DNA of 64,000 bases from positions 21,400,995 to 21,464,994 of the forward strand of contig CP141142.1 in the NCBI GenBank assembly GCA_035235625.1, in the 5' to 3' direction. A program made the translations under genes and the position numbers. Below, piece by piece: positions 20,314 through 58,090 of this stretch; positions within the stretch are counted from its first letter, which is position 1; each line of letters starts with the position of its first letter. Under the pieces are notes generated by a model, which was not told where the DNA came from, searched no databases, and worked only from the letters and a program-made list of their open reading frames with translations. The DNA comes from Saururus chinensis. Taxonomy: Eukaryota; Streptophyta; Magnoliopsida; Piperales; Saururaceae.

Positions 20314-23099
20314 AAAGGGTTTTAAAAATCCGGGTCATGACAGAAATAATGGGTTAAAACCATCGAAAAACACAATTTAAGTAGAATACAACCTCATGCT
20401 AGACTTAATTAAGCATATTCATTGTTATGCTTTAAGCTAGACATGGAACCATTATTCACCCATAATTTAAACATAACATGCGAAGTCAAACAAATTCATT
20501 CTCATGTTGTAACATTGCTAGAATCCTAATTAAAAGATGAAGAATCACTCAACATGGATTTAGGATAAAAAATCATAATCTGCTTAACCAAATAACATGT
20601 AATCTACTTTGCTTAATCGTCATTTATCAATTAAAACATGAAGTAATCGCATGAAAAATTAAGCTTTTCATAACCCACCATTAAAGCTCAACTTCATGCA
20701 AACCCATAAAACTTCACCAAACATCAAATCCAAAAATACAGACCTATTTTGGAAGAAAACCCTTACCTTCAGTGAGTTTCTTGGTCTAAAATCGATGCTC
20801 CAACCTCTTCAAATCCCTACCCACATTAGGGTTTTGTTAATACATTGATAAATCCGATTAACGAAGCTTAAATCCCTTAAAAACTCATAAATCTAGGGTT
20901 TATTTAGTTCCAAAATAAAAATCCCTCATTAGAGGTTTAAAATAGAGGTCAAAATCAGAAACTTTAGTAGTAGAAATCAAGATTGAACAATGGAAAAGAT
21001 GAGATTTAAAAAGATTATGAAAAACCCTAGGTGATTAGTGAAGAAATCAAGATAAATTTATCGTAATCGAACTTTCCTCTTCTGGAATGGGGATTAAGGC
21101 CCCTTAGCCTTCCAGATTCCAGCCCTTCCCAAATGGGAATGAGGCTATGGTTTTCAATTTATAATAAGTCATTGGGTATACCTAATAGGATTTTCGGGTA
21201 CGAATAAAATTTAACACTAAAAATGGGTAATTTATTTATTTTGAGTCCAAAATGAAGTTTAAATATTTTGAAACACTTAATTACTTAAATAAAATCTTTT
21301 TAGGGTCTCATGGGACCCATCATCCTAATTTACGAATGTGGGGCCCACGGCGGGACCCACGCCCTAACTTTTTTAGAAAAATAGCCAAAATTCTAAAAAT
21401 TCTAAAAAAATTGAATTGACTTATTTTAACATAAAAACCAATAAAATGAAGGAAATGTAAATTAAAACCATAGTTAACCTTAAATTCCAAAACAAGTCAA
21501 AACCAACCAAATTTAACACTAAACCACACAATAATAATAAAACAAATTAAACAAACCGGTTTAGGATTTGGGGATCTTACATGAATAGTATGACATTTTT
21601 GTGGTATGATGAAAAGATGTGAAGTACGTATATAAAATACTATCACTTAGATTAGCACTAGTGGTATTGGCACTAACGGGCGTTAGCGTGTGCACCGTCG
21701 ATATCAATTATCATGGATTTTCATGAATTCTTACACTAAGCTCATTGTCAGAGTGGAGTATGAAAAACTCTTCTCTTATATTAAATGGGTGTTTCAAAAT
21801 TCGAGATTGAGACTCAACACCAAAACTGTTTCAAAAAAACCCATGGCTCAACCCAAGCCTTCTTAGGGCTGGGCTATGGATTGACTTTTGAAAGCCCACC
21901 CAAAGTTAAGATCGGGCTAGAACCAAGAAATATGCTAACAAGCTAGGCTAGGGCCTAGGCATGGTTTCAACACTATCTAAGACCTCTTGAAGAAGTGCGA
22001 CTACCAAACCAACTTATTATTAAAAACAACTTGGTTGAAAAAATAAACCAAAACATAAAAGACGTAATATTCAGTTCCAATTGATTGAGCTATCTTAATC
22101 AATTGCAATATTGAATAAGTTGTAGATCAGAAAAAGAGAGAAAATGTCATCCACGGGATGACCTCTGAGCTCCGTATCAAAATGATTGGGACTGTAATTT
22201 GAAAACATGGCCTCACTAATCAGTCCTACATATGCCTCTGGTTCTCCAGATTGAAACATAATGTCAATGCGACGTGACATACTAAAGCATCCTCAATTTA
22301 ATTGATATGGATGATATATGCAATTTGTCCAACTAAAGTCAAGTTAGGGGTTTTGTTAGGTAGATTATAACGATTATCATTTTCTAAAGCAAAAAACACC
22401 CATATGTAAGGGTGTTAATGAGTCCCAAGTAGAGCAAGCACCCCTGGATCGAACTAAACATGACTCAAGTTTGGATTAAATTTATTAGTTTGAACTCACC
22501 TCAATTTTACTCGACGTGAATTTAGTTCAAAGTCAGCTCAAATAAAAATCAATCTCAAATATAATTTACAAATTACAATACTTAATTTGTATTAATTAGG
22601 ATAAATTATTATAATAAATATATTTTGGGCTACACCCAAGTTTCTTATATAAGAGATTTGACCTCAAGTTCAAGTTAAGCCTCAAGTTTTCTAATCAAGT
22701 CAAGTTCAAGCTAAAAGGTATAGAGTCTTTCTTAACAATTCAAAATTGGAGTTTAAGTTAAATGAAACTAATACTCAGGTTGGCTAGTTAACACCTCTCT
22801 TAGCCCTTATTGCTCCTGATCCTCCATTTCAGTAGCCTTGGCAAAAGTATAAAGTGCATGCATGCTTCAAGGCGTTCAAGACATGCATAAGAGGATTCCG
22901 AGCTGCAGCAGTGAGTTTTCTTTCTACTTTCACATTGCCAAATGAGGTCATTATGTGAAATTGGTGGAATAGCGGCGCACATTTTTAGGAATAACCATGA
23001 GTTTGATTCCAATTGGTTTTTTTTCATTGTAGGCATACTCTACATAAGCTAGGATCGATGTTCTAAGAGGTTTGAAGAAAATACACGATGAATGAATAC

Positions 23100-26934: not shown

Positions 26935-29835
26935 CACTGCCTCTTCTTCTTTAGTGTTCTACGCGCCAATGTTGGCATTGGCAACACGCCAGTGACCTCC
27001 TCCTCCTCCGGCCTCGAACCATGGTTGTGGCCAGAAGAACCTCTAGATGCGGCCAGCTGATCTGCTCTGAGCCAGGCTGGGAGCTCTAGCCAAGTACAAA
27101 TGCTTTGGCTGCAGATAGTTCTCCAACTACCTACGATCAGAGTGACCAAAAATTGCTAGAGGAGAGGGGGAGAAGGATGACCTAGGAGTTGCTGCCGTTG
27201 CCTTGTTGGGGTTGGAGGTATGGGGTTTTGTTGAGGGGGTAAGAAGGGAGAGAAATAATAAAGTGTTTGGGGTTTGAAAGTGAAAAAAATTATTAGAATT
27301 TTTTTGAAAGCAGGGTATTTAAGGCATTAATGGGATGTATATAGATGCATTCGTCATAAGAAAAGAGTTTTTTCTACTAATCACTAACAATGAACCCAAC
27401 ATAAGCTAGTCATGAGAGTTGTTCATTCATGAGTTTGATGATACACAAGCAACAACATATTAGTGTTAGTATTACTTACCTTAATGTGAGCTAGCATGTG
27501 CCATCAATTTAAAATATTAATGACTCTCATGAATAACTTACATTGGGCTTATTGTGAGTAGAAAATATGAAAAACTCTTCACATCTCAAGATATAAGATA
27601 GGAAGTCAAGATTCACATGTGTTAGTAATTATTTCGTGCCCACCCTCTTCCGTGAGTGGAATTCTCAACTTCATCATGAGTTGGCACATTTTAGTTAACA
27701 CAAAAGCTCCATCAACTTTCAAATTCAGGTATATTATCTTAAATTAGGAAGTGTTTTTAATGCTCTCATCTGACAACGAGCCCAATGTAAAGAATATATA
27801 ACCCAAAAGATTATGTAACCTAAAATATTAAAAATAAGGTGTCTTCTTTCATTAAAATAATACAATGAAAATTAATAACTTCTTTATCATAAATTTAGAG
27901 AAGCTCGGTGGCTAAAAAATATCACTAAACTGCTCATTGGCTAATCATAGCCAAAAGACTATTGAATGGGAAGAAAAAAATGGAAAGGGCTATGTAACAA
28001 TGTATAAGTATAATACGCATTTTAAATGCGAAGTATAGGAAAAAATGTGAAGTACACATTTTTTTAAAATGTGAACAATATGGCATTTTTTGTGGTAGGA
28101 AGAAAAAACAAGAAGAACAGGTATAAAATATGTATTATACCTATTTTTGTCACTTAGATTAGCATTAGTGGTATTGGCGCTAGTGCGCACTAGCGTGTGC
28201 ACCGTCAATATCAAATATCAAAGGTTCCCATGCGTTCCTTACGCTGGGCTCATTGTCAGAGTATAAAAAACTCTTCCCCTAAATTAAATGGGTATTTGAA
28301 AACTCATGATTGAGACTCAGTACCAAAATTATTTTAATTGAGTCAATTTATATATAAAAAAATATGTGCCTCAGCCTAAGCCTGCTTAGGGCTGGGCTAT
28401 GGCCTAACTTTTGAAAGCCCACCTAAAGATAAGATCGGGCTAGGACCTAGGACTGAGAAATATGCTAACAGGATAGGCCAGGGCCTAGGCATGGTTTCAG
28501 CACTATCTAAGACCTCTTGAAGAAGAGGTGTGATTAACAAACATAGTTAAAATTAAAAAACAACTTTATTTGAAAAATAAACCAAAATATGAAATATGTA
28601 ATATTCCTTCCAGTTGGTTGAGCTATCTTAATCAATTGCGATATTGAATAAGTGGTAGAAAAGAAGAAAAAATAGAAAATATAATCCACGTGACTAACTC
28701 GGAGCCCTGCATCAAAATGATTGGGACTGTAGTTTGAAAACATGGCCTGATAAATGTTTCTTTAGTTTGAAACATAACATCAATGTGGCGTGATATCCTA
28801 ATTTGTATTAATTAGGTTAAATTATTATAAAAATATATTTTGGGTTAGATTAGCCCAAATTTCATATACTTCCTCCTTCCTATATTAATAGCTCCAACAG
28901 AAAATAACAGTGTTCTATATTAATTGCTCCATTCGACTTAATTTGAGCCTCTCCTGTTCTTCTCATAATTACAACACCTCGACCACTAGCAACCGTGAAT
29001 CAAATCGGATTTTTAGAAACCCAGTTACTTTATCTAGAGCTCTTCATTCATGGTGGGACTAGGCAGGGCCTCTGTTCCTCCATGACTTTTCCTTCACTCA
29101 TGAATCATGATAACTCTAGACTATCGACCTTGGGCATTTAAGTCCCCTCCCTACCTCCAGAATGCAAGTCCCCGACACTACGTCTCCTCATTGGGCCATG
29201 CGGGCTGAACAACGACGATGCATGAACAAGGACTCGTCTAGCTTGAGTAGGGTTTTTTATTAAGTTTAGTGACCAATAATTCGAAGTTACCATATCAACA
29301 AAGGAAGGGTGTGAGCAAAACTTCGAACCCAATCCAGTAGGTTCTTAATTACTTCCCCCCTCTCGGTATTCACTAGTCATAGAGTGTGATCATGGCCGGT
29401 AGTCAAGAAAAACATTTTCTTATGAATATGGAAAAGAAGTTGTTTCAATTACATTGGCTTTTTAAATACTGTTTCTGTCACATTATTTCATTTTTGAAAA
29501 GCTAAATGGAATTATTAATGTGAGAAATAGGGAGTCGTATATATTCTGTGTTTCAAGGTAGACCGCTGGAATGAAAAATTATCGAGCAAAGTAAATTTAT
29601 TTTCAGCAAGTTTCCCGCATGTCAACCAACAATACGATGTATCATTGATACAAAGTAAATTTATTTACTGCAAGCTGTCTTGAGTACTGCATATCTGCAT
29701 GACAATTATATTATATCACACACAACAACTTGTCTACATATATCAGACGATCGACCAATCAGGTTCAACTTATTTTATATATACCCAGGAAACGTGAACT
29801 TGATAAATCGACTGCATGCATGCTGCAGGCTGCAG
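26935..29835 (+). repeat. Segmental duplication unit 2, upstream part
   Basis: Aligns with unit 3 at 38036-39767 and 47015 onward ('ccaatgttggcattggcaacac' 26968 and 38406; 'gatgcattc-tcataag' 27348 and 38791) and with unit 1. Relative to unit 1, about 2 kb is missing near 28800-29220. No gene in 26935-29835. Confidence 0.75.
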
Positions 29836-30709
29836 CTAGTTACGGAGAACGATGGCAGCTTCTGGCCTAGGCTCCTTGTACTCTTCAACGGGTTTATCCT
29901 TCTTAGCTTCCAAGGAGTCGTCGTGGTAGATAGTGGCATCACGCCAAGGGTCGAAATCCTTGAGGAAACTATACTCATATTTCTTCTTGGTGGGTTGATC
30001 ATCGGATGAGATGAAGAAATACTTGGCTTTCTCTCCTAAAAAGCCTTCAGAGTTGGAGGGGATGAAGTTCCGAATGGCCTCCAACATGGGCCGGTTCACC
30101 ATCACATGCTTCCATTCCTCACCTGGGGCCTCTCTTCCCATGGCTGTAGGCATGCCCACCTGCACAAAATGCAAAATATATATTGATATATAGATAGACA
30201 ATTTTACATTAAAACTGTTTTCTTGACCAAGTTTCCCGATCAGCTCCTAGACTAACATACATAGGCTCGAAACATAGTACATAAAGAGCAGCTGTGCACA
30301 GAAGTTAATGCCCCTTATATGCTATGTTAAGAGCACCATGTGGGCTGGTCAGGTGGTGCTGGTCACTAAGACAGGTCAGGCTAAACAAGCCAATTATAGA
30401 GCAATGCTAAACGCCATGGAGCAAAACTTGTGGGTCCTTGCTAAGTAACGCACACAATTCTTTGCATATTGTATGACAATCGCTCACCATGTAATACAAT
30501 ATGACTCGTATAACTTGTAAATGAAAGAAGTCTACGTGAACTAGCTAGACTCTGAGGAGCTCTGTTCATTCAAGCGTGAGAATTTTTAGAAGGTGCACTA
30601 ACACCATGGAATCATCTTTCTAATGGATGGCAAGTAAATAGCAAGTGAATTAATTATTTACCAGGAGAATGGCGAGGATCGTGATACTAACGGAAAAAGG
30701 GGCTGCCAT
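29836..30709 (-). CDS. Organ-specific protein (PF10950-type), copy 2, two exons
   Basis: Exon 1 is 30662-30709, exon 2 is 29836-30159, and the intron (30160-30661) has GT/AG borders in phase 0. The protein is 123 aa with the same signal peptide and W-K-H-V-M, E-A-I-R-N-F and I-Y-H-D-D blocks as copy 1. Differences from copy 1 seen by eye are T6S and I12L in the signal region, A to P in F-I-(A/P)-S-N-S, one extra Phe in K-Y-F-F, and in the C-terminal half T to P, I to A, S to T and Q to K. Copy 2's D-F-D-P-W-R keeps the Pro, which is closer to the family consensus as I know it. No frameshift or stop. It is probably secreted. The function of the family is not established. Confidence 0.88.
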
Positions 30710-38035: not shown

Positions 38036-39767
38036 CCCACACGATATGATACTTTTCTTACTGGAACCCTACCCCCTTTCTTCTGGTTCTTTTGATTGGA
38101 CATAATACACAAGGTTTAGGCATACATGTAGCCATTAGAGCCTTCAACCAAGCTTAATCTTCTTAAAGGAGCCTTGTCTCTTCTAATCTTCTTTAGAATG
38201 ACACAATGAGTTTCTGGTTTACAACTTGACAGAGAATAATATTGCTTAAGGCACTGTATTAGGAAGGCTTAATGGGTATTTGGACTCAGGCCCATTACCC
38301 GGACCATTTTAAAAGCCCAAAACAATGTCAATTGAGACAGTTGAGCCACTTGATGTTTTCAATATAAAAACAAGCCCAACATCTTCTTCTCTAGTGTCGG
38401 CAGGCCAATGTTGGCATTGGCAACACGTCAAAAACCTCCTACTCTAGTCGTGGCTAGAGTGGAGAACCATGGCTGTGGCAAGAAAATCTACTCCTAGTCG
38501 GGCTGGGAGCGCTGGTCGGGACCAAAAGCTTTGGTTGTGGCCAATATTCCAGCAGCCTATGTTCAGAGTTCTAACCACAACTCTAGGGAGGAGAGGGGAG
38601 GAGAAGGATGACCAGGGTTGCATTTGTCGATGTTGTCCCTGTCACAGTAGTTGGGGTGGGAAATGTGGGGTTTTGTTGAGGTGGGGTAAAAGGGAGATAA
38701 ATAATAGGTTATTTGTGGTTTCAAAGAGTAAAAAAAATACTATAATTTTTTTGAAAGAGGGGTATTGAAGGGATTAATGGGGTGTAGATAGATGCATTCA
38801 TCATAAGAGAAGAGTTTTTCTTGCTCATCACAGACAATGAACCCAACATAAGCTACACATGGCAAGCATTCATTAATGAGATCAATGTCACACACGCTAC
38901 AACAAATTAGTGTCAGTATCAGTTACATTAATGTTCATGAGCATGTGTGCCGTTAATTTTAAATATCAATGACTCTCATGAGTAACTTACGTTGGGCTCA
39001 TTGTTAGTGGGGAGTATGAAAAATTCTTCCCATCTCAAGATATAAGATAGGAGTACGAGATTCACATGTGTCAGTAATTATTTTGTGCCTGTCGTTTTCC
39101 GTGAGTGCAATTCCCAACTTCCTCATGAATTGGTGCATTCCAGTTAACACAAAAGCTTCATCAACTTTCAAATTTATCTATATTAAATTAGGAACCATAA
39201 TCAGTACTCCCATATGACAGTGAGCCAAGTGTAAGGAACGCATGGGAGCCTTCATCAATGAGATCGACAACACACATGCTAGCGTTCATTAGCACATAAG
39301 GGAACAAGTACGAGTACAACAATAATGTGGTTAGGGGAGACGTATGGAAAACATATAAAAAAAATTCAAAATAAAAAATGTAAAAATTATGGAGAAATAA
39401 TAAAAATAAACAATATATGATATATATATATATATATATATATAATCCAACAGATTAAAAAAGATCACTTGAGTGCTCATTGGCTAAGCAGATCCAAAAG
39501 ATTATGTAACAAAGTACGAGTATAATAAACATTTTACGCATGAAGTTTTTAAAAAATGTGAATAATATGGCATTTTTTGCAGTAGGATGAAAAAATGTGA
39601 ACTACATGTATAAAATACATATTATACACATTTTTTGTCACTTAGATTAGCACTAGTGGTATTGGCACTAATCGGCACTACCGTGTGCACCGTCGATATC
39701 AAATATTATGGTTTCCCATGCGTTCCTTATGTTGGGCTCATTGTTAGAGTAAAATATGAAACACTCT
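38036..39767 (+). repeat. Segmental duplication, end of unit 2 and start of unit 3
   Basis: Resumes unit homology interrupted at 31085. It matches 26890-28280, with an extra ~290 bp at about 38090-38385 of unknown origin. Contains a (TA)n run at 39421-39444. No gene. The CACTA insertion begins at 39768. Confidence 0.75.
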
Positions 39768-40345
39768 CACTACAAGAAAATGGGGTATTAGCAACTGTCA
39801 AAGAGTTGCTAAAGGTTATTTGCAAAGCTTATTGACCGTCGCAATAAGCGTCGCAAATAAACCAGTCGCTACTACTTACTAATGACAGAAAAAAAGAACC
39901 GTCAGTAATAGTACCTTTAGCGACACTTTTGCAAACCGTCACTAATATATGCTTATTAGCGACGGTTACAATATCATTGCTACAATGTCATACATTTGCG
40001 ACAGTTAGATATATGTCGCGAATGAAAGTATGCACAACGCTTTTATTAGCGACGGTTTACATTAGCGTTGCGAATAATGTTTGTATTAGCGATGTTCAAT
40101 TAAATTTTTCATAAATATTTAGAATAGCAATGCTCTCTAAAAGCGTTGCTAATAGAATTGTTAGCGACAATTTGAGAGCATTGCTATTGAATAAAATTAA
40201 AATAAAACAATAGCTTCGCTAATAGAATTGTTGGCGATAGTTCATGAGTGTCACTATTGAATAAAATTAAAATTAAACAATAGTTCCGCTTGTGGAGCAT
40301 CACTAATATAATTATTAGCCATCAGTAGTGTTGCTAATGAACAAA
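39768..40345. repeat. CACTA left subterminal repeats
   Basis: 'ttagcgacggtt', 'gcgtcgcaaat', 'ttgctaata' and variants recur at least 15 times in both orientations, as in subterminal regions bound by TnpA-type proteins in this superfamily. Confidence 0.9.
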
Positions 40346-40496
40346 AAATTTAAAAAAATATATAATAAAATGTTAAATAGAAATAAAGATTATTTTTTTC
40401 ATTTCTAATTATATCCATACAATCATATCTCGAATACAATTAAAAATCTTTACTTACAATACAAGTTGAGTTCTTTCCTATTAATGGCATATTTAA

Positions 40497-42231
40497 AGCA
40501 AAACTATGTTAGGATCCTTGAAGGAATTTTCGTCCTGCAAATCAGAGTCATTTGAGCTGGGAGCATCAACATGTATATGATCAGTTTCATGACACTCACA
40601 TAAGTCTTGAGCAGTTGAGCTTCCTGGCAACTACCTCTGCATTCCAATATTCCTTTCTTTAGCAACAGCCTTCAAAATGTGAGCCATTTTTTATTTGTAC
40701 AGTGGCCTGTTGACCATCAGAGCATGCCCTTTTCTCCAAAGCTCCATCTTAATGGCATTTGAAGTGTCATGGTTAAGTATCCAGGCAAATGTGGCTTTCT
40801 CCTAGTATGTCTCTAGGAAGTTTAGTTGCTCTTTCCATATATCTGTGCTCAAGTCCAGCAGAGCAATGTCCACCACAATCACAAGATATGGAGTTTTCAT
40901 GGTCTGGCTGTTTAATGCGCTAACATGCTCTAATATGTACCCCGCAGAATAATGTGGCCAGCTGCAGGGTGGAAGCTGTAACTATGTAAGCATGATTGGA
41001 TGATAGTAACATCAGTTTTTTTTGTAATAAAATTTGATTATAAGTATTTCATTTCTTGTTCATGTGCAACATTTGCTCCATCTCTTATGATGTCGAGAAA
41101 CTTCTTGGAGGAAAGTACCATGTAAAAACTTAATAATTCTAGACCACCTGCCGATAAACTTTAATGGTAAAAGTAACTTCTACCTAATATGACTGCTTAA
41201 CATATAGAATAAATATAAACCAAAGTGGTACTTACATGAAGTGAACTCAATAGAATTGCTGATCAGGTTTGCAAAAATCTGAACCACTGGGGAAGAGTCT
41301 CCCCGAACAAACTTCGGCATATCATCTAAAAGTATAAACTACAATCTCATCAAAGCTTTTGCCTGAGAAACTGTTAACCTATGCTTTTATCGTGAACAGA
41401 TAATTATTGCTCCCAGAGCTTCATCTTTATGACATAAATTGATAAAATGGCATACCAGAGAGATCTAGAACAGTCCCTGCATTCTGGTTGATGTATTGTA
41501 CAGAGAACATATCCACGATTCCTTCAAGTTCTCGGCCCAAGTCAAATTCAGCCTCTTCCAGTACTAGTTTCCCCGACTCAACCTACCCATTTTGTGAAAC
41601 AGAGCCATAGGATGTTTTCTTATCAAAATAAAATAAATAATTTGACTTTTACCTCATATTTGCCAAAAAATGGCTTTTGTAGTTGCTGGAATCTTCTGCC
41701 CTTCTTCTTGCTTCAAGGTGACTTATCACTTCTGCTCTTAATTTCATTTCTTTTGAAACTCCACTGGTTAATATCATAATGCAAACACACCCAATCACAA
41801 GAATGCAAATAGATGCAGTAATCAATATCAGCAAAGCTGTGAGAGCACTTTCATCAACCTTCCCCTTTATATATTTTCTTGGAATTATAACTACTCCTAC
41901 CTGCAATTCAGACTTTACCAATAAGAATTAACTTCATAAGTTCTTGATCACTAAAGTACAAATTTTCTAACTATTTTTTTTGTTGGATTATCTAAAATGT
42001 TTCGTCACATACATACATTTACTGATTGTGAAAATATTTTAAGTAGAGTTTTCATAAGCCTCTTCACAATATGACTTAAAGAAAGAAAGCTAATGAAATA
42101 CATAATTAGAGAACTCACCAAAGGTAGCCTTTTCAAACCCAGGAAAAAGGAATCAATATAATATTTCTGATGTCCTAGTACTACATTTTCCATATGCAGC
42201 TCATTATTCAGTAGGAATTTATTTTTGTAAG
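40497..42231 (-). pseudogene. Captured AHK1-like histidine kinase gene fragment, exons and introns kept
   Basis: On the minus strand: exon a 42119-42231 (K-F-L-L-N-N-E-L, then Y-Y-I-D-S-F-F-L-G-L-K-R-L-P-L); exon b 41653-41900 (G-V-V-I-I-P-R-K-Y, a membrane helix about A-L-T-A-L-L-I-L-I-T, then S-S-N-Y-K-S-H-F-L-A-N-M); exon c 41456-41582 (V-E-S-G-K-L-V-L-E-E-A-E-F-D-L-G-R-E-L-E-G); exon d 41236-41325 (D-D-M-P-K-F-V-R-G-D, N-box A-N-L-I-S-N-S-I-E-F-T); exon e about 40497-40961 (G-H-I-I-L-R-G, then T-P-Y-L-V-I-V-V-D, L-N-H-D-T-S-N-A-I-K-M-E-L). All borders keep GT/AG and phase. This order matches the plant osmosensor histidine kinase AHK1/HK1 as I know it. The H-box exon (H-E-L-R-T-P) between b and c and the G1/F/G2 boxes in e are missing, and the receiver domain is absent. 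There are stops in exon e. Confidence 0.92.
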
Positions 42232-43500
42232 CTGAACAATGATAGAATAATCATTTGACTGACTGAATAACTACTCAATGTGATGCAGAGATTAATAGGA
42301 AATAGTAACTAGAAGAACACACATTAGACATTTTCAAAGATAAAACATAGAAAGGTGTTATCCTCTGTAGCTACTCAATGCCATTTCTGGCCACAGAAAG
42401 GTGTTACGTAGTAAAAAATCTTATCCTTCAACTACACAAAAAAAAACATAACAAACACAACTAAAGTGGTTGTGTGATCTGTATTTTCAATGCGACTTCT
42501 GGCTACAGAAAGGTGTTGCATTACTTTCAGCGGGGTTAATCTGCAATATAAACAAAGGCAGAAAATTTCCATTTACAATGTTCATCACGGAATCTGCAAA
42601 AATAGTCCTTAAATATTTAAATTTACCAACAAATGTTAATCAACTGATTAGAACAATAACCACCAAGGGAAAGTTCTTCCCTTGTTGGTCTAAAAGTTTC
42701 ACAGCTAGGTATTACAAGTATCCAACTCACAAGTTTGGTACTACATTGCACCAAATACTACCAACAAACAGCCAATCTAGCCTAAGTCTAATTGTCTGGA
42801 TCTCATCCTATTGAGTGAGATGTATGGGGGTAAAATCTCTGTGGCATCATGTGCGTGTGAGGCAGTGGTGGTGCGCGTTTACTATAGAAAAAAAGACATA
42901 TAAGTTATCCAACCAATCATAACCATTGAGTATAATCAACTCCAACTTAATTCAAGAAAAATATTAACTACCCTTCATATAAGTACGTGACCGCTATAAC
43001 AGAGGATGGAAAAATTAAATAGAAGAACACACATTAGACATTTTCAAAGATAAAACTGATTATATTGCCAATTAAAACCAAAATTGACTATAGCTTAAGG
43101 CCGTGAGACGAGCACTATTATTTACTAGTCAGAAACCAAAATCGACTCTGAGAATAAATTTCTGACCTTGAAGAATTTCTGGACTACGAAGAAATTTGGG
43201 CTATGAGAAAACTTGGACGCTGAAAGGATATACAAATTTGCTGTTTTTCTGGCCATTATAGGATATGGAATGAAGATTTAGATTCTACTAATTGAAAAAT
43301 GAAGATTGAAGACAAATTTTCATGAAGACGTAGTCTACTTGCGGTGTTTTCTGGCCGATGTGAAGAAATCCCTCCATGGCGTGTAACTCCTCTTCATCGT
43401 GGGATTCCTAGTTTAGGGTTAAATTTTATTTCACACGATTCTTAAGGATACCATTGCTCAGTAGCATATCTATTTTTAGTAGATCAGTCGCAAAACGCGG
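42232..43500. other. CACTA interior, non-coding, small direct duplication
   Basis: 'agaagaacacacattagac-ttttcaaagataaaac' occurs at 42311-42347 and again at 43021-43057. 'ttctggc-acagaaaggtgtt' occurs at 42388 and 42497. No further kinase exon could be recognised, though the 5' part of the captured gene could be decayed here. Confidence 0.6.
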
Positions 43501-43739
43501 GAGTGGGAGCGGGAGTTGGATTTTTTAGCGAGAAGGATTGCCAGTTTATTTTAGGCTTTATTAAAAAAATTAGGAGCAATTCTACGTGGGCCCATGCATC
43601 ATTATATTAAAATTTGTCTTTTTGATTAAAATCTAACACTTTTAATGCTGAGCTAATTATAATATATGTGAGCCCAGGTCATCCAGGGTCATATGTGATA
43701 TGAGTCTTTATGGTTAATATTTAACCATTCAAGAGAAAT

Positions 43740-44480
43740 TAAACATGAGTAAACGTAGCCCAGCAAATTAAGACTTGAGTAAACGTAGTACAACTCAAAG
43801 CCTAGGGCATACACTCACCTAAACTTTTATTTCCAAAATTTTATGTTTTTAATTTAAAATTTTATCTTATAAATTTTATATGGGTAATAGATAAATTTTA
43901 TAAATTTGAATTTATTTTGGTAATTAGTCAATTAATTTTTAAAAATATTTTAAAAAAAATCTAACTTGATCTTGACCAAAACTTGTGTGCCATACTTTAT
44001 GTATACATCCACCCAATTGTCATCCATACAATTCATATATAGTCGCACATAGGCCCATACATCATAAGTTATCACATCAAAATTTGAAAACATAATTAAG
44101 TGTTCGCGCAGTTGCTTGAGCCCAAGCTCTATAGCCTAGCAAATTTAGATTCAATGATGCATATTACTTTAAGACTTGAGTAAACGTATTACAACTGATC
44201 AGAGCCTAGGGTACTCACGTAAACTTCTTTTACCAAAATTTTATGTTTTTAATTTAAAATTTTATCATATAAAATTTATATGGTTAATAGATAAATTTTA
44301 TAAATTTGTATTTATTTTGGTAATTAGTCAATTAATTTTTAAAAATTCTAACTTGATCATGACCGAATCTTATAGGCCATATTTTATACATCCACCCAAT
44401 TGTCATCCATACAATTCATATATAGTCGCACATAGGCCCATACTTCATAAGTTGTCACATCAAAATCTGACAATATAATT
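43740..44480 (+). repeat. ~310-bp direct duplication inside CACTA
   Basis: 'agacttgagtaaacgta-tacaact' at 43770 and 44172 starts two copies that run through 'tttatgtttttaatttaaaatttta', 'gtcatccatacaattcatat' and 'cacatcaaaat-tga'. They are spaced about 400 bp apart. Confidence 0.85.
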
Positions 44481-44919
44481 AAGTGTACTGCATGTATGAA
44501 CTCATACTTTACGGGTCATTTGATCTAAGGTCTGACGATACAAACATTTTATTTTGATATTTATATTTACTCACAAAAATTTTACAAGTTAATAGGTAAA
44601 ATTAAAAAATTATTTACACTTTTTTTGTATTTATTTCCATAATAAGGTTATTTTTTAAGTTTTTTAAATATTTAAATTAGGTCATGTTTAGGTATGCATA
44701 GATCATGCTCAAGTTACTATATCTAAAATGAAAACATATTCAGGCTTTAGATAACCCAACCCGAGCTCGAAGACCAAACATATGTCAGGTTGGGTTAGGT
44801 CCAACAGATTTGATTCATATCTCAAGTTAGGTCATGCAAAACTCGACCTAACCCGACCCGAGATGTAGCCCTAGTCTTGTAGAGTATTAAAACTCGGACC
44901 GAATATGATACTATTAGCT

Positions 44920-46260
44920 TAATTCCCACCCCAACCCAATGTAGACCGTTTAGGAAAAAATATATATTTTAGATTTTAATATACTATTTAATATAATATT
45001 GAGAGATAAATTGGAATACATCTTGGTGGTTTTTCATAATTCGTATTGTTTATTACTAGTTATTATGTTTTCAAGAAAGAGAAAGAATATCAAATGTATG
45101 TATGACATCGATCATCATAGCTTTTTAAAATTCATTGTTAAGCGGGACATGATATTCCTTTGACAGGAGTCTAGAATTTGAGGCAGTTGTCTGAGCAATT
45201 TTGTAAAAAATTAGTCTTTAGTAACATGTTATAGCACATGACTCGTTGAAAAGGTATAGCAAACAACAAATTAGTTTCACTATGGTCATAAATAGAATAA
45301 GTTGCAAGACTAAATATTAATTACCATATTAGAAATATTTTTTATTATATTTATATAATTTAATATTACTAGCAAATAGTTATTTTTTAAACTAAAAATA
45401 AATTATTATATAATATAATAAATAATTTTTAATGAATTTTATTAAATAATATAATAATTATGTACTTCTTATTTTATATTAATTATTCCAATTTTAATAT
45501 ATAGATAATTAAAATTAATAATAATTTGATACTATTTATAACTACTTTATCATCATTTTTTAAGAGAGAAATAATATTATCAATGCACGATGATGAGGAA
45601 TATCATCAAAGTTTTTCATTATTCAAATTATTTAATTTAGAAGTAAAAATAATATAATATTCCCTAACAGGAGTCGAGAGTTATGTAGGCAATTGTCTGC
45701 TCATGTTAAAACACACTCGTCGAAAGGACAAATTACAACAAATGATTAATAACACTATGGTCCTAAATAAATTAATAAGTTACAAGCTTTTGTGCTAATG
45801 TAGAAGTAATGTTTTTCATGATATTTATATCAATATAATTTAATAGTACTAGTAGATAGTTCATTTTTCAAAATAAATAAATTTATATTATAACATAATA
45901 AATAATTATTTAATTTTTTTTATTAAATAGTATATTAACTTACGTATTTTATAATTAATATTATTTAATTATAATATATAAATTATTAAAATAAATAATA
46001 ATTTATTCATATTTATATAATTTAATAGTACTAATAAATTGTTATTTTTTAAAAATTTATATATAATATAATAAATAATTATTTACTAATTTTATTAATT
46101 TATGTATTTCATAATTTATATTATTCAATTATATTGTATAAATTATCAAATTATCGTAACTTTTTAACAAATTATTTTTAGTATATCAAAACATTATCAC
46201 ATCTTTAAACCTTGGAATAGGTTGGGTTTACATTGTTTTTTTTAAAAAAAAATTAATTTT
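44920..46260. repeat. Very AT-rich tract with internal duplication, CACTA interior
   Basis: Over 80 percent AT by eye. A block with 'ggagtc-aga', 'ggca-ttgtctg' and 'cactatggtc-taaat' near 45165-45310 recurs near 45668-45790, and 'aataaataatta-tta' blocks recur three or more times. No coding potential. Confidence 0.7.
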
Positions 46261-46469
46261 AAAATGAAATCAATAAGAAATTAATTAAGTATCGATTATC
46301 GCAAATTCATGGATGTACCACCCCTTAAACCATATTGTTATTTTTATTTTTTTAAAATTTCAAACAGGTTCTTTGTACATTTGTCAAGTGTCGAGGCAAG
46401 TAACTAATACACCATGCTTTTTATTAAGCGTATTTAATGACCTTTTATTATGGCAAATCTCTACAAGTT

Positions 46470-47014
46470 TTTTTAAAGAAAGTAACTATTAGTGATGGTT
46501 TTGTAAATCGTCGCTACAAGTTTTTTATTAGCGACGCTATTTAAAGAAGTCGCTACAAGTAAAATTAGTAACGATGCTTATTATAGAGCGTCACTAAAAG
46601 TATCCTGAGTAGCGATGCTTCATAAAACTGTCCCTAATAGCTATTTTAAAAAAAATTTAAAATATAACTTATAGTGACGCTTCACAAAAAGTGTCAATAA
46701 TAAGCCAGGAAGCATCACTACTAAGCCAACTTGTCGCGATGGTTCGCAAGAAGCGTTGCTACTAAGCCAACTTGTAGCGACGCTTTCTGTAAAGCATTGC
46801 AAATAAATTATACTTTTCGCCACGTTTTACAAAAGCATCACTAACCTTTCGCGATGGTTTACTAAAAGCATCGCGAGAAGTATATTATTAGCGATGCTGT
46901 TAGTAAAGCGTCGTGAAAAGTATAATTTATTTGTGATGCTTTACAAAGTGTCGCAAATGATAGTTAGTAGCGACGCTTTTAATAGCGTCGTTACTACCCA
47001 GTTTTGTTATAGTG
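46470..47014. repeat. CACTA right subterminal repeats
   Basis: Repeats of 'agcgacgctt', 'gcgatggttt', 'aagcgtcgc' and 'gcatcgc' in both orientations, mirroring the left end. Confidence 0.9.
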
Positions 47015-48941
47015 TCTTCCCTCAAATTAAATGGGTGTTTCAAAACTCGAGATTGAGACACAGCACCAAAACTGTTTCAATTGAGTCAATTTGTATATAA
47101 AAAGACTTGTGGCTCAGTCTGAGCCTGCTTAGGGTTAGGCTATGGCCTGACTTTTGAAAGCTCTAAAGATAAGATTGGGCTAGGACCGATAAATATGCTA
47201 ATAGGCTAGGCCAGGGCCTAGGCATGGTTTCAGCACTATCTAAGACTTCTTGAAAAAGAGGTGTGACTACCAAACCAAATTATTATTAAAAAATAATTTT
47301 GTTAGAAAAATTAACCAAAATGTAAAAGACGAAATATTCCTTCTAATTGGTTGAGCTATCATAATCAATTGCAATATTGAATAAGCCGCATATCAAAAAA
47401 AGGGAAATTGTCATCCACGGGATGACCTCCAAGCCCAGCATCAAAATGATTGGGACTATAGTTTGAAAACATGGCCGGATAAATGGTTCTCTAGTTTAAA
47501 ACATAACGTCAATGCTGTGTTATATGCAAAACATCTTCTATTTAATTGATATGGATGTTGTATGCAGTTTGGCCAACCAAAATCCAGCTAGGGGTTTTGT
47601 AGGTAGATTATAACGATTATTATTTTCCAATGCTAAAAGCACCCATGTGTAGGGGTGTTAAAGAGTCCCAAGGAGAACTAGCTCCGCTAGATCGAACTGA
47701 ACTTGACTCAAGTTCGAATTAATTTTATTAGTTCAAACACACCTCAATTTCACTCGACTTGAATTGAGTTCAAACTCAACTCAAATCAAGACATGCATTA
47801 GAGGATTCAGACCTGCAGCAGTGTGATTTATTTCTATTTTCACATTGCCACTTGACATCAATGGCCAATGATATTAATTTCTTCTGGGTTATTTGAAATT
47901 GGCAGAATAGTGGCATTTTTAGGAATATCAGAGTTAGCCTTGAGTTTGATACCAATTGGCTTTTATTCATTGCAGATAGACTCTACTTAGGCGTTGTTTG
48001 GTTGTGTAATCTAGAAAGCTGCTTTTGGTTGAAATCGATTTTTGGAAAACAAAGTAAAAGTAGGTTATGTTTGGATATACATTATAGAAAATCAGATTTT
48101 CAAAAAAAATTCCAAAAATCTTGTTTGGGTAGCCATTGTATTACATATCATCTTCATTATGAAAAATACATGTTTTGACCTCAAATAATTAGAGGAAAAG
48201 GGGTGGAGTCGACGAGGGTAGTCATCAATGGCAGATGTTGGTGGTCATAGTTGGAGAAGTGGAAGGATGTTTTACTGAAGAGGAGAAAAGGGAAGGGTGT
48301 TAGCACTGGAGAGAATAAAAAAATGTGCATGGTGGGAAGAGAAGGGAGAAGGGTCGTTTATTGGATAGGGAAATGTGCGCATGTAAAAAAAGAAAAAATG
48401 CAAAAGTGTTATAGCAAGAGGGAAAAGAAGGATAAAAATGTCAACTTGTAATATTTTTACCTTTTTTCTATATGCTTTTAGTCTAACCCTCCTCAGGAGG
48501 AGAGTTAGGCAGAAAGCGGATTAAAAGCAAAAGCGAGTCAAAAACGGGGTTGAAGGCGCTTTTGAAACAAAGTGAGGCTGTTGGTCTGCCTAACTAGACA
48601 AGATTTATATGCAAAGCAATAAAAAATAGACAGAAAGCGGTTGTAAAGCATCATCCAAATGATGCCTTAAGCGGGGATCGATGTTCTAAGAGGTTCAAAG
48701 AAAATACATGATGGTCCAGCTAGCCCACCTACTTGATGAAGTAAAGTGAATTGGATGGCTGAAGCTTAAGGAAAGCTATTATTAGTTCTGACTATGGGGG
48801 CATCCGGCCGCGTCCTTCATGGATCTTGATTGTTGTACTTGGCTGAGGCTTTAGCCTCCATTGCATGTCTTTATCAAAAAGAACTCGTCTAGCTTCATTA
48901 GGGTTTTTTTATTATGTTTCAGTGACCAATAATGAGAATTT
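47015..48941 (+). repeat. Segmental duplication unit 3, right part
   Basis: Continues from 39767 after the CACTA element. Shared landmarks with unit 1 include 'cctaagcc/gagcctgcttaggg', 'ggggtgttaa-gagtcccaag', 'gaggattc', 'caattggcttt', 'gggatcgatgttctaagagg' and 'actcgtctagctt'. It ends at 48941, where a minus-strand copia LTR begins, just short of where the organ-specific gene would lie. A MITE is inserted at 47990. Confidence 0.8.
47990..48666. mobile_element. PIF/Harbinger-like (Tourist-type) MITE, 677 bp
   Basis: Left end GGCGTTGTTTGGTTG and right end reversed GGCATCATTTGGATG form imperfect terminal inverted repeats. The TSD TTA lies at 47987-47989 and 48667-48669. The empty site is in unit 1 at 23037 ('ctctacataagctagg'). 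Inner terminal words 'agaaagc' and 'cagaaagcgg' also mirror each other. No transposase. Length, TSD and terminal sequence fit the Harbinger group. Confidence 0.88.
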
Positions 48942-52319: not shown

Positions 52320-53371
52320 CCATGACATTTGATGGCAAGCACACGACGGTGGCAGTGTCAACGGCAGAGTTGGCAGCTAAAATCATTGCCAAGTTCAGAG
52401 AGCTACTGTACCAAGGGTTTTAGGAAGCGCCAGAAGAAATCACAGCCAAATGGGGTGACACAAATCAATGTAGCAAAATCCGCGATCCACGACAGCACAC
52501 TAAGGGCGGCCAGGAAAAAGTCATGCCAACATAAATGGTGGTGTGACTAGAAGTCGAGGTGTACTCATTGAAGGTCGGCCGACGACTAAGAAGAACTCGG
52601 TCAACCGCAAGACGTTGAAATCGGCCATTGATAGCACCTAACAGCATCAATTTTGCATCATCAAGGGCCCACATAATGGTGGAGGGCATGGGGCTACGCT
52701 TGAAGATAGAAGAGAGGTGGAGGAGGGCTCTAATGTCAACTCTATTCGGTGGCAGAGCCATCTAACGGTCAAACGGCACAAAAGCAGCGCCTAAGCCGTA
52801 AATTGCACGCACGGCTACTTGCACATGCGGCCAAAGGGAATGGGGATGGTGTTGGCCCAAGGCCCACAAAAGGGCAACAGAGCTAGGTCAGGAGGTGGTG
52901 GCTAACCGAAGCGGTGACATTGCCAATCACTACCCATAACCAACACATTTGGTGCGGGCAGCAGTGCATCTCGCACAATATAGGGCAAGAGCAAGCGGCC
53001 AATTCCGAACGGAGGTGTAATTGGCCAAGTGGTGCTGGCCCTCACTGTCGCCGAGCTGGGGCAAAGCCCATGATGGCCAAACGGCTCACAGCTCGCAGAT
53101 GGAAATGACCCAAGACGCACCCAAACCGTCTAATTGGGAGGAGCAAGACAATAGGGGAGAGGCGGGATCGGAAATGGCAACCCCCAACCGACACCAGGTC
53201 AAGGTAGGCTTGACGGAGTTTGTCTAGTGTTTGGACGACAACAAGAAATGCACCAGTGTAAAAAAAATGCATTGGACAGAGATGAAAATAAGAACAAAAA
53301 TTGACCAAAGTACTGGTAGCTCACAGCGGTGTGAAGAAAGCATGGTAGCGGCTCAAGCCAGTGCCTATGGG
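52320..53371. other. GC-rich part of LTR4
   Basis: Several open frames on both strands arise from composition (about 60-130 codons). None carries a recognisable motif and codon context is uneven. I see no gene. Confidence 0.5.
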
Positions 53372-53709
53372 TGTTGTGCACGTACACTTGATTCAGCAGT
53401 TATATTTATTTCAGTACATTATTACTTTATTTCGGTTCATTATGCTAGTTTCCCTTATGTTAGTGGTTAATTGTCATTTGTATTTCGTTATGAAACTGTG
53501 GTAGGCACGCTAGTGGACCACGGGATAGCCGGGCCCACTAGCGGCATGATTCCCAATGTGGGATGGCGCGACTCCCCATAAAGGGTCGTCTCCCTCCTTG
53601 GTTTGGCATGCTAATACAATTCCAGTTATTTCTCCCCTTTCTTCCTACTTCTTTCCTTTTCCATGCGTAGAACTCCTATGTACCGATTGTGCCCACATTA
53701 GGCACAACA
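53372..53709 (+). repeat. Chromovirus 5' LTR
   Basis: TGTTGTG to GGCACAACA, followed by a one-base spacer and TGGTATCGGAGC (53711-53722), an iMet-type primer site with one mismatch. Confidence 0.95.
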
Positions 53710-53739
53710 TTGGTATCGGAGCTCTTACAATCCCCAGCC

Positions 53740-55033
53740 ATGGCTGGAGGCAAACAAACTGCCACAGCCCCGAAAGTTCAGCCCGAGAAGGAGGCTCTCG
53801 CCTCTGCGAATAGTCCGAGAATAGTGCTCGAATCCAGCGGCAAGCTTACTATGGTGCAACTCATGGCTGAGATTAGTACCTTGAGCATGGGTGTAGCCAA
53901 GATCGATGCTCTGGGCTTCAAGCAGAGCGCGCAACACCTCTTTTGTCCAAGCCGCCAACATTGTCCATGGAGAAGGGGGGTCTGTCCCAGGCTCCTGAAC
54001 TGCACCACTTTGACCTCCCGACACCGATGGACCATGATATGCGCTTTCCCCAGGATACTATGCACTTTGGCACTGTCAATCAGGCCATGGATGGGAGTGC
54101 CAGGCTTGGGATTCGCGAGGAACATCAGGTGTTCCAGGAGATGGAGGATGACTGAGAGGAGTACCCAGGGCCCTGTGGAGCACCCCGTGGAGGGGCTGAA
54201 CCTTGTTTGGCCCGCCTACAGTTCCCACGTTACAATGGGGATGACGACTCAGTGGAACGGTTGTACAAGGCAGAGATATTTTTTGCCTACCAGGGAACAC
54301 ATTCAGAGGTTGAAAGACTGCGCATGGTGGCCTTCCACCTAGACGGGGATGCTTCGGTATGGTTTCAAAGTTTTGAGAAGGTGGTGCACCTGCCTTCTCC
54401 AACGAGTTGTGCATCCAGTTTGGCTCAAATGAGTTCCAAGTCTTCAACGAGATGCTCTCCTCTCTGCGATAGACATCAACCATTCGGGCTTATTATACGA
54501 AGTTCATGAAGGTGGCCAACCGCCTCCTTGACTGGCCGGTGGCAGCCTTGGTGGGCACATTCAAAAGGGGGCTCAAACTAGAGATTTCTAAGGAGATGCG
54601 CCATTTTCCCTATTCCATCATGCGGGATGTCATGTGCCACGCATGCATTGAAGAAGAGAAACTGGCTAGACAGTGGTGTGGAGACCGGCTCGGGACTTTT
54701 CCTCGTGCCACTGTGACTACCTCCCCTCTTGCCGCCCCAGCCAATAGCTTAGTGGCTGGCCGCTCTGGCCAACAACCCCCTCAGGCCAGTCCGATTTTCT
54801 GCCATCTCACTTTGGCTCAAATGGAGGAACGTCATTCGAAGGGGCTTTGCTTTCACTGCAATGAGAAGTTCATCCCGGGGCACCGTTGTTCCATCAAGGG
54901 CAGTCTTTTAATGGAGGAGATCAATGAGGAGAGGGAGGTGGCAGACGGGTATGACTCATCGCACTATGATGACATGCTACCATTGATTTCTGTCCATGCC
55001 TTCTCGGGGGCATTCACTCCACGCACAATGTGA
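53740..55033 (+). pseudogene. Chromovirus gag
   Basis: ATG at 53740 opens M-A-G-G-K-Q-T. A frameshift near 53930 moves to the frame from 53943, and another near 54160 to the frame from 54207, where the gag core reads F-P-R-Y-N-G-D-D-D-S, K-A-E-I-F-F-A-Y-Q-G-T and F-H-L-D-G-D-A-S-V-W-F-Q. A third shift near 54400 leads to A-N-R-L-L-D-W-P and F-K-R-G-L-K-L-E-I. The knuckle C-F-H-C-N-E-K-F-I-P-G-H-R-C is intact near 54848-54889. Stops near 54153 and 54468. The gag would coat element RNA in the cytoplasm if intact. Confidence 0.88.
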
Positions 55034-55440
55034 ATACAGGGCTACCTCAAGCAACAACAAGTGGCCATTCTCATTGATAGTGGGTCCACCTACAACTTCA
55101 TTAACGACAGAGTAGCCCAACGGCTAGGCTGCTTCGTGTCTGCTTCGTGCCCTTTGATGTGCTGGCTGGCAACGGAAAGCACCTCCAGAGCTCAGGGGTC
55201 TGTGCCCAGGCAGCGCTCTCCATTCAGGGACACACATTTGTGACAAACCTCTTTCTGCTTCCTATGAAGGGGGTGGATGTGGTGTTAGGGGTGCAGTGGC
55301 TCCAAGAGCTCAGGGACGTGCTATGGAACTTTAAGGACCTGGTGATGGATTTTGCGATTCAGGGGCAGCAAGTGCGCCTCCAAGGGTCTCAGCAAGGCAC
55401 CCACCTTTCTGCTCAACCAACGGGGTCCTTATTTTGGTTT
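55034..55440 (+). pseudogene. Chromovirus aspartic protease
   Basis: V-A-I-L-I-D-S-G-S-T-Y-N-F-I-N (about 55055) holds the catalytic D-S-G. A frameshift near 55140 moves to the frame from 55147, which reads L-L-P-M-K-G-V-D-V-V-L-G-V-Q-W-L, the second protease block of plant gypsy elements. A stop precedes the domain at 55031. Confidence 0.87.
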
Positions 55441-55459
55441 GCCTCCCAGGGGCTACTCC

Positions 55460-56343
55460 TTCAGCAGCGGGCATCGGTGGACGTCCTTCAAGATGAGTTG
55501 CCACAAGATCTCCTTGACTTATTGGCGGAGCATGGTGCAGTGTTTCCTGAACCACTGGGCCTTCCTCTGATGCGGCCACATAATCACTATATCCCTATCC
55601 TTCCAGGTGCCTCCCTAGCCAATGTCCAACCATACCGCTACCCGTACATTCAGAAGGCAGAAATAGAATGTCTTGTAGCTGATATGCTTCAGTCTGGTAT
55701 CATTCGCCTGAGGACTAGCTCATTCTCTTCCCTAGTGAAGGACAAATACCCTATACCGGTGGTTGAGGAGGTTTTGGATGAGCTGGCTGGCACTACTGTC
55801 TTCAGCAAACTCGACCTCTGGTTGGGTTACCACCAGATAAGGGTACAGCCCACCGATGTGCACAAGACCGCCTTTCACACTCATGACGGCCACTTTGAGT
55901 TCCTTGTCATGCCGTTCGGCCTGAAAAACGTCCGCTCCACATTTTAGAGCCTCATGAATGATCTCTTATGGCCCTTCCCTTGCCACTTCATCTTGGTTTT
56001 CTTTGATGATATTCTTGTCTATAACAAGTCATGGGGGGAACACTTGGAGCATCTCAGGTCTATCTTTGCTATTCTGAAAGATAATTCATTGTTTCTTAAA
56101 CATTCGAAGTGTTTGTTTGGGAGCCCACAGGTGGAATATTTGGGCCATATCATCTCTTGTGACAACGTCGCCACTGACCCCTCAAAGGTTACCGCCATGC
56201 TGTCCTGGCCATCCCCTACTTGCATTCGGACGCTTCGGGGTTTTCTCGGCCTTACTGGCTACTATCGGCGATTCATTCACCCCTATGGCAAGATTGCTCG
56301 TCCCCTTAGTGAGCTGTTGAAGAAAGGGGCACTGACACACTGA
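55460..56343 (+). pseudogene. Chromovirus reverse transcriptase
   Basis: The connection and fingers run to S-G-I-I-R-L-R-T-S-S-F-S-S, then jump to V-K-D-K-Y-P-I-P. The usual segment between (including K-K-D-G-S-W-R and D-Y-R-A-L-N) is missing in frame, roughly 25-30 residues. F-S-K-L-D-L (motif A, catalytic Asp kept), M-P-F-G-L-K-N and the catalytic F-F-D-D-I-L-V-Y (about 56002) follow. One stop at 55945, where the family has Gln, splits the frame. It ends with L-R-G-F-L-G-L-T-G-Y-Y-R-R-F-I. Confidence 0.9.
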
Positions 56344-56815
56344 AGAGGGCTATGGTGTCCACCCCTGTTCTTACCCTTCCTAATTTCTGCCAGCCCTTTG
56401 TGGTGGAGACCGATGCTTCTGATACTAGCTTAGGGGCGGTGCTACTACAGGAGGAGTGTCCCATTGCTTATTTCAGCAAAGCTTTCGCTGGCCGCTCACT
56501 GTCCTTATCTGTATATGAGAAAGAGATGCTGGCCATCATCCTCGAGGTCGACAAGTGGTCCCCTTATTTGCTGGGACACCAGTTCTTGATTCGCATTGAC
56601 CACCAACCCCTCAAATGTTTCCTCAAATAGCGGGTGTCCACTCCATCATAGCAGTAGTGGGTTAGCAAGCTTCTTGGCTATGATTATAAGGTTGTGTACA
56701 AGAAGGGATCAGACAACACCGTGGTCGACACCCTTTCTTGCCATGCCTCTCCAGGTTCGTGTTTGGCTCTTTCTAGTCCGACTTGTCCCTTCCTTGCTGA
56801 GTTGAAACAGGCATA
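56344..56815 (+). pseudogene. Chromovirus RNase H
   Basis: P-V-L-T-L-P-N-F, then V-E-T-D-A-S-D-T-S-L-G-A-V-L (catalytic Asp present), Y-S/F-S-K-A-F, Y-E-K-E-M-L-A-I, and R-I-D-H-Q-P-L-K. Stops at 56341, 56628 and in the following WVSKLLGYDY block; continues to K-G-S-D-N-T-V-V-D-T-L-S. Confidence 0.88.
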
Positions 56816-56869
56816 CTAGGATGATCCCCCAACCTGCACTTTAATTTCTTCACTCCAGACTGACCCAGC

Positions 56870-57845
56870 GGCATGGCCATTCTTTGCATGGAAGGATGCC
56901 CTCCTCTTTTGGAAGGACCACCTATGGGTTCCCAAGGTTGCTGATCTTCGATGGCGTATTATCTTCCACTTCCATGACTCTCCCATGGCTGGTCATGTGG
57001 GTGCACTCCGCACTTATAAGCGGGTTAGTCAGAGCTTTCTGTGGCAGGGCATTTACTGGGCTGTTACTACGTATGTGGCCACTTGTGATGTCTATCAGAG
57101 AGCTAAGGCCACCACGGCGTCTCCTGCAGGGTTGCTTCAGCCTTTGCCTATTCTAGATAAGGTATGGGAGGATATTTCTATGGACTTTGTGGAGGCCTTG
57201 ACCCTGGTACAGAGCAAGTCGGTAATTATGGCGGTGATGGACAGGTTGTCCAAGTACGCTCATTTTTGTGCTCTGGGACACCCCTTCACCTCCAAGTCAA
57301 TGGCTGAACTCTATGTTCGGGAGGTGGCCAAATTACATGGTATGCCTTACACTATTGTCTCTGATCGCGATCGGGTTTTAATCTCTTAGTTTTGGTAGGA
57401 GTTCTTCACCTTACAGGGCACTTCTTTGCACATGAGCACCGCGTATCACCCTCAGACGGATGGTCAAACAGAGGTGGTGAACAGATGTTTGGAGCAATAC
57501 CTGCATTGTTTTACTATGTCTCAGCCACGCCGATGGCTTTAGCTTCTTCCGTGGGCGGAATGGTCTTATGACACCGCTTACCACACTTGTGCCAGTTTCA
57601 CTCCTTTTGAGGTATTATATGGGAGGCCGCCCCCGACAGTGTTATTGTATGTTCCTCATCACTCGTCGGTGGCTAAGGTTCTCCACCAGCTTAAGGAGAA
57701 CTTCTCTTCATATGAAGCAAATCTATGATAGTTATCACACTGATCGTGAGTTCGCGGTGGGCGACTTGGTTTATGTCTCTGCCGCCTGGGTCGATGGTCC
57801 ACCCTGTCTTTCATGTATCCAGGCTGCATCGTTGCATAGGTGACA
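56870..57845 (+). pseudogene. Chromovirus integrase
   Basis: The zinc-binding region reads H-F-H-D-S-P-M-A-G-H and, later, A-T-C-D-V-Y-Q, so the second Cys of the usual C-x-x-C is Tyr. The core has all three acidic positions: D in S-M-D-F-V-E-A-L, D in I-V-S-D-R-D-R-V, E in [16 protein letters not shown] and P-P-P-T-V-L-L-Y follow in another frame. At least five stops and three frame changes. Confidence 0.9.
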
Positions 57846-57869
57846 CGTCTTTGGCCACTGATGTTCCAC

Positions 57870-58060
57870 TACCTCCCTTGATGGGCCTAGTTGTTTCTTT
57901 CGACCCGGTTCCTGCCGCAATGCTCAATAAGGGCTGTGTCTGCTGCTCTGGTCATATTATTATGGAGGTTTTGGTTTCTTGGCAGGGGCAGTCACTTGAG
58001 GATGCTACATGGCTGTCTGAGGATGAGTTTATGTCTCGATACCCATCTTGGTCACCTTGA
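57870..58060 (+). pseudogene. Chromodomain-like C-terminal tail
   Basis: E-V-L-V-S-W-Q-G, then E-D-A-T-W and S-R-Y-P-S (57965-58055) match the chromodomain end of plant chromovirus integrases, where W-x-G and D-A-T-W are hallmark positions. The stop TGA is at 58058. It would steer integration to particular chromatin in a live element. Confidence 0.82.
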
Positions 58061-58090
58061 GGACAAGGCGTATGTGGAAGTGTGGTGGAG

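Follow-up and report, generated by a model that had tools for sequence, protein, structure and literature searches.

Introduction

The closest described systems to the locus presented here are the Pack-CACTA (Pack-TYPE) elements (PMC8903248), Tgm-Express1 of soybean (PMC1947982) and CACTA elements of Chenopodium (PMC8978399). The available parts of these sources report that CACTA elements have captured genes, in one case with introns (PMC1947982), and that transposase-bearing elements contain short captured pieces (PMC1947982, PMC8903248, PMC8978399). For Pack-CACTA elements a capture model is given in which two neighbouring insertions around a gene fuse (PMC8903248). In this study a stretch of 64,000 nucleotides of Saururus chinensis (C3:21400995-21464994, CP141142.1; the window) was investigated, in which a CACTA transposon very probably encloses a part of the osmosensor histidine kinase gene HK1/AHK1. 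Genome searches covered 11 contigs with 516,460,831 bases. Positions without a contig name are those of the window, unless called parental.

Results

The element in the window

A single CACTA transposon of 7,247 bp was found at 39768-47014. With high confidence it is read as an element without detected transposase that carries a decayed, internally deleted copy of the host gene HK1, in sense with the transposase of its family. The element starts with CACTACAAGAAAA at 39768, ends with TTTTGTTATAGTG at 47014 and is flanked by the target-site duplication (TSD) TCT. The window contains 93 CACTA and 75 TAGTG words; these ends were the sole pair of words lying 300-20,000 bp apart with the same 3-bp flank on both sides and 10 or more of 13 terminal bases alike. 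GCGAC-like motifs reach 19 per kb at 39768-40350 and 36 per kb at 46481-47014, compared with 0.65 per kb in the element interior and 0.55 and 0.77 per kb in the rest of the window. CACTA terminal inverted repeats (TIRs), a 3-bp TSD and dense subterminal repeats at both ends, as found here, are features of CACTA (En/Spm) elements. Two paralogous sister units in the window are without the insertion and have one TCT each. Thus, the ends, the TCT duplication and the empty site in sister units, all proposed in a preliminary description of this DNA, were confirmed.

For the TNP2-type transposase (PF02992), 8 of 59 listed open reading frames (ORFs) were scanned against Pfam, and no PF02992 match was listed in the window. 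A second captured gene between 42234 and 46450 was considered and rejected; no Pfam match was obtained in the 8 ORFs scanned across the element, and the stretch is present in high copy number.

The parent gene

The minus strand from 42233 to 40538 is colinear with C11 in three blocks, about 96% identical overall (parental 5927591-5928199, 95.6%; 5929253-5929944, 96.7%; 5931643-5932028, 96.4%). At C11:5925446-5932901 a hand-built gene model with 13 exons and an uninterrupted frame of 1,222 codons was obtained. In this model HisKA, HATPase_c and Response_reg exceeded their Pfam cut-offs and dCache_1 remained below its own; the window copy, in contrast, has no single open frame with HisKA, HATPase_c and receiver domains. 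The protein search, with scoring limited to the 7,991 candidates that had the most words in common, gave 409 matches to the parent. The 120 listed all share the same three Pfam domains, and apart from five rows without a name they are plant proteins, many of them called histidine kinase 1. Among the top-scoring listed matches were Aristolochia fimbriata (69% identity over 99%), A. californica, Tasmannia (75% over 79%) and Magnolia (73% over 80%); Aristolochia, Tasmannia and Magnolia are magnoliids. Both the assignment to AHK1/HK1 and the predicted full-length parent elsewhere in the genome therefore stand.

The possibility that the C11 locus is itself carried by a CACTA element was rejected. 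In C11:5920001-5937500 the terminus CACTACAAGAAA was absent and no full-length CACTA terminus was detected; shorter end patterns gave three matches of 8 bases within the gene, and six subterminal motifs occur 0-1 times each. Since neither a full terminus nor a motif cluster surrounds it, the locus is regarded as the native gene. The intron before the His-box exon ends with CCGG instead of AG (C11:5928865-5928871). The same letters are present in a captured copy on C2 (C2:13630873-13631358), which makes a random assembly error unlikely.

Conservation and decay of the captured piece

Comparison with the parent corroborated five HK1 exon pieces with introns in antisense to the window. The four introns keep their GT/AG borders, with the donors GTGAGT, GTAAAA, GTATGC and GTAAGT and the acceptors TTGCAG, GGGTAG, TTTTAG and CTGCAG. 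Two deletions remove exon 5, which holds the histidine box (SHELRTPM), and everything from the later part of exon 8 through exons 9-11 into the beginning of exon 12. Exon 13 is absent too; the phosphoacceptor-His exon and most of the ATP-binding exons are among the losses. The codon phase, described before as kept, is broken twice. If exon 4 is spliced natively to exon 6, six codons and then a stop follow (ANM-RLSRGN-stop), because the His-box exon is missing, and exon 8 breaks off after 23 nt and continues via a 15-nt filler into exon 12. The exon 12 piece contains three in-frame stops. It is also shorter than the earlier limit of 40497, as similarity to the parent stops at 40538 and 40537-40497 lies outside. 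In the Pfam scan the five kinase pieces gave only a sub-threshold match to MadM, and a search of the PDB with exons 6-7 returned weak histidine-kinase matches among others. Compared with the parent, the five exon pieces differ at 15 silent sites (proportion pS 0.072) and by 22 replacements (pN 0.029), with the three stops counted among the latter. The Kimura two-parameter distance to the parent is 0.034-0.043.

A working captured kinase was therefore rejected as a candidate; the frame is lost twice, three stops are present, and the His box and most ATP-binding exons are gone. The window copy is a decayed pseudogene and makes no kinase. That the piece might nevertheless be spliceable and potentially translated, as first described, is suggested by the kept borders of its four introns and by Tgm-Express1 of soybean, for which splicing of captured exons into host transcripts is reported (PMC1947982). 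Against the same losses, together with that of exon 13, little credence can be given to this reading. As the borders of the four introns are intact, the piece may still be spliced into a non-coding RNA.

Sister elements

A second copy with its own TSD (ACA) was identified 2 Mb from the window element, at C3:23410115-23413543 (3,429 bp). Both deletions of the window copy are shared by this element, which extends further 5' in the gene, to parental 5927156, and carries one of the three stops but not the other two. The captured piece has thus moved as a unit, as is typical of Pack-CACTA elements, and with no detected transposase, an enclosed host gene piece and a source elsewhere in the genome the window element itself agrees with their definition. 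Given the colinear and well preserved exons and introns, one could also suppose a native kinase locus between two small elements with CACTA ends. This is practically out of the question: the outer TSDs are equal, the two empty sister sites lack the whole 7.2 kb, a full-length parent exists elsewhere, and a further element, flanked by a TSD of its own, shows the same two deletions. Capture by a CACTA element and the existence of further copies with the same capture, as anticipated, were thereby verified.

Other elements retain other parts of the gene. All genome searches scored the best candidates only, so that counts are lower bounds. Parts of exons 2-3 were detected at five places (5 of 5 candidates scored), namely the parent, the window, C3:23410115-23413543 and elements on C2 and C8. 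The latter two retain the 5' part of the gene, both without parental 5925657-5926176, and the C8 element includes 41 bp that start at parental 5925094, 352 bp before the ATG. Elements on C6 and at C3:9.44 retain the 3' part as far as parental 5932609, which lies in intron 12, 50 bp from its start; past this edge they share 1.45 kb with 95.5% identity. The C6 element is apparently flanked by TGT on both sides, and its first TIR bases are CACACAAC. On the parent, the outer edges of the captured parts lie 7.5 kb apart, from about C11:5925094 to 5932609, just past exon 12. With C11:5928692-5931444 as query 15 rows were obtained (12 of 12 candidates scored), corresponding to the parent, eight already known elements and three short matches. 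A separate match of 86% to the parental exon 11-12 region, at C5:5842270-5842414, is more diverged than the captured copies and possibly an older relic.

Distribution of the HK1 tail

The parental exon 12 as query gave 43 rows (40 of 41 candidates scored), which represent 40 places: the parent and 39 others including the window, distributed over all 11 chromosomes. For 34 of these 39 the match length is 35-106 bases, mostly 77 or 90. When the parent and the two rows running to 5932609 are excluded, 40 short or medium rows remain, 35 of which have their end point at query base 387 or 388 (parental 5932028/9). A CACTA terminus in the right orientation, 734-1035 bp from the tail and with differing flanks, was found at 17 of the 23 distinct tail-bearing places examined; at two more the terminus was further off. 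At C5:9294980-9295560 the tail is present in three tandem copies.

The two distinct 3' edges, with few rows between or short of both, would also be expected if HK1 had been captured repeatedly by related elements, one type reaching 5932609 (C6, C3:9.44) and one ending near 5932028. However, deletion from the longer capture would yield the shorter edge, and the copies share the family ends and similar distances from the parent. Two captures instead of one are hence considered unlikely.

Transposase-bearing relatives

At least 152 matches to PF02992 were obtained in the genome (150 of 231 candidates scored). When 107 of the 152 matches were used, 6 of 39 tails had one within 15 kb, in every case on the side and strand expected. 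Under even scatter 0.24 would be expected, a value that is too low if transposons are clustered, since clustering raises the expected count. The family transposase was found in elements on C5 and C10. One of them, C5:42448714-42461018 (12,305 bp, TSD ATG), combines a transposase domain, which has one in-frame TGA, with the HK1 tail. Its relative on C10 (4.11 Mb) is 90-98% identical in long aligned blocks and shows transposase-associated, tnp2, DUF4218 and DUF4216 domains. Two further pieces of the C10 relative, at locus positions 6304-6597 and 7136-7456, match Pumilio homolog 23 (E about 1e-14) and PAN_2 (E 1.1e-9). G-type lectin receptor kinases are known to contain the PAN_2 domain.

In the C8 element the 5' terminus, the 3' part of the transposase and the 5' part of HK1 follow each other on one strand, the transposase part being the stretch that matches C10:4113792-4116232 with the DUF4216 region. 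The captured part therefore lies downstream of the transposase gene and in sense. For the family sequence at 43-46 kb of the window, 509 first-look genome candidates were found and 40 scored; one match, C5:42459453-42460042, lies inside the C5 element near its 5' end. Because of this position the window copy is best read, from its sequence, as an internal-deletion derivative.

Features of the window

The features of the element and its empty sites are collected in Table 1. Outside the element, similar ORFs of an organ-specific protein (PF10950) were found in two repeat units of the window (25691-26155 and 29836-30246; Pfam scan of the first ORF). At 53371-58432, matches to reverse transcriptase and integrase zinc-binding domains, enclosed by two direct repeats (343 bp, 92% identical), mark a retrotransposon.

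Table 1 Coordinates of the CACTA element, the captured HK1 parts and the empty sites in the window
Feature	Position	Strand	Remarks
Left TSD, TCT	39765..39767		equal to 47015-47017; single in both empty sites
TIR and subterminal region, 3' end of element by orientation of family transposase	39768..40537	-	motif density; homologous to many places in the genome
HK1 exon 12 piece (C11:5931643-5932028)	40538..40923	-	96.4% identity; in-frame stops 40804-40802, 40693-40691, 40633-40631
15-nt filler joining exon 8 remnant to exon 12 piece	40924..40938	-	marks internal deletion of 1.7 kb (rest of exon 8, exons 9-11, start of exon 12)
HK1 exon 8, first 23 nt	40939..40961	-	parent comparison
HK1 intron 7, both borders kept	40962..41235	-	parent comparison
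HK1 exon 7	41236..41325	-	parent comparison
HK1 intron 6	41326..41455	-	1 substitution in 130 compared with parent
HK1 exon 6	41456..41582	-	parent comparison
Fused remnant of introns 4 and 5	41583..41652	-	1,053 bp including His-box exon 5 deleted; junction about 41626-41630
HK1 exon 4	41653..41900	-	parent comparison
HK1 intron 3	41901..42118	-	parent comparison
HK1 exon 3, last 115 nt	42119..42233	-	parent comparison
Repeated family sequence on the upstream side of the capture, no sign of coding found	42234..46450	-	recurs widely from about 43.1 kb
Subterminal region and TIR, 5' end of element by orientation of transposase	46451..47014	-	motif density 36 per kb over 46481-47014
Right TSD, TCT	47015..47017		equal to 39765-39767
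Paralogous empty site 1	21582..22546	+	single TCT at 21769-21771
Paralogous empty site 2	28059..28796	+	single TCT at 28272-28274

Discussion

Shared edges and shared deletions are explained by one capture followed by transposition and internal deletion. HK1 would have been taken up once, by a CACTA element and immediately downstream of its transposase gene, and later copies would have arisen by transposition and internal deletions, plausibly through faulty gap repair after excision. The window copy would have jumped later into one unit of a local repeat array. Faulty gap repair suits the deletions in view of their junctions, which show a five-base alignment overlap and a filler, respectively. 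For the capture step itself, fusion of two neighbouring insertions, as in the published model, fits equally well as gap repair.

Several observations weigh against this account. Apart from the counts being lower bounds, 5 of the 40 tail rows deviate from the identical junction, two being 14-18 bases longer and three shorter, and 4 of the 23 tail places gave no match to the terminus pattern. Three parental stretches (5925135-5925339, 5925657-5926176 and 5928214-5928738) are in no copy seen, and the capture is thus known by its edges and not base by base; some of these stretches may be later insertions in the parent. The ends of the C2 element are flanked unequally (AGA, TGC) and the 3' terminus of the C8 element is damaged, hence both may be rearranged. 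The open frame of the parent requires a GG acceptor before exon 5; the other acceptors are AG. The pN/pS ratio of 0.40 to the parent is below 1, which may be explained by constraint on the parent's side. Two separate captures, unlikely as they are, belong to the same list.

Small-RNA effects in trans have been proposed for captured gene pieces. In view of the many near-identical pieces, putative small RNAs from the CACTA-borne HK1 parts could target the parent, but an action of the relics in trans is judged highly improbable. Doubtful to the same degree is the wider scenario in which a CACTA lineage took nearly the whole HK1 with about 350 bp upstream, in sense and directly downstream of its transposase, a stub lasted in transposase-bearing copies across the genome, and transcription would give sense or small RNAs acting on HK1 and so link transposon activity to drought or salt signalling.

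Capture of a gene by a CACTA element is a known type of event, and the HK1 case is a well resolved one. HK1 as captured cargo of a CACTA element was not found in searches of the open-licence PMC literature; the histidine kinase mentioned in one matching paper is unrelated. The matches listed for Saururus and CACTA included no transposon paper by title. The earlier view that such a capture is uncommon holds insofar as no paper on HK1 was found; CACTA capture with introns was already published, as the available part of the soybean report indicates (PMC1947982). An unusually full record is preserved in one genome, with the source gene, the edges of the capture, several forms of deletion and a stub that persists in copies with transposase, and it shows uptake and then erosion of a large host gene by a plant DNA transposon. 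Surveys of the HK1 family in the S. chinensis genome can pick up such relics and should be made with caution. Furthermore, a defined set of copies is now available for asking whether relics affect their source gene.

The captured part derives its sequence from the HK1/AHK1 histidine kinase, but it no longer has an open frame and has lost the last exon, the exon with the His box and most of those for ATP binding. Like Pack-CACTA elements within Pack-TYPE, as far as these are covered in the available part of the source, the window element has CACTA-type TIRs, a host gene piece inside, a source elsewhere and several copies (PMC8903248). In contrast, the captured stretch of its family probably measured 7.5 kb with introns, and HK1 pieces are also present in transposase-bearing copies, whereas Pack-TYPE elements are called non-autonomous (PMC8903248). 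In the portion of the report available, Tgm-Express1 of soybean is likewise a CACTA element with host gene pieces as exons and introns; it carries pieces of five unrelated genes and its splicing was shown by cDNA (PMC1947982), whereas the window copy contains one identified gene and is known here at the level of DNA. The CACTA elements of Chenopodium are comparable in their short host gene pieces, e.g. 80 bp of AP2. According to the accessible text these lie in the 5' region outside the coding sequence (PMC8978399), while HK1 lies downstream of the transposase gene.

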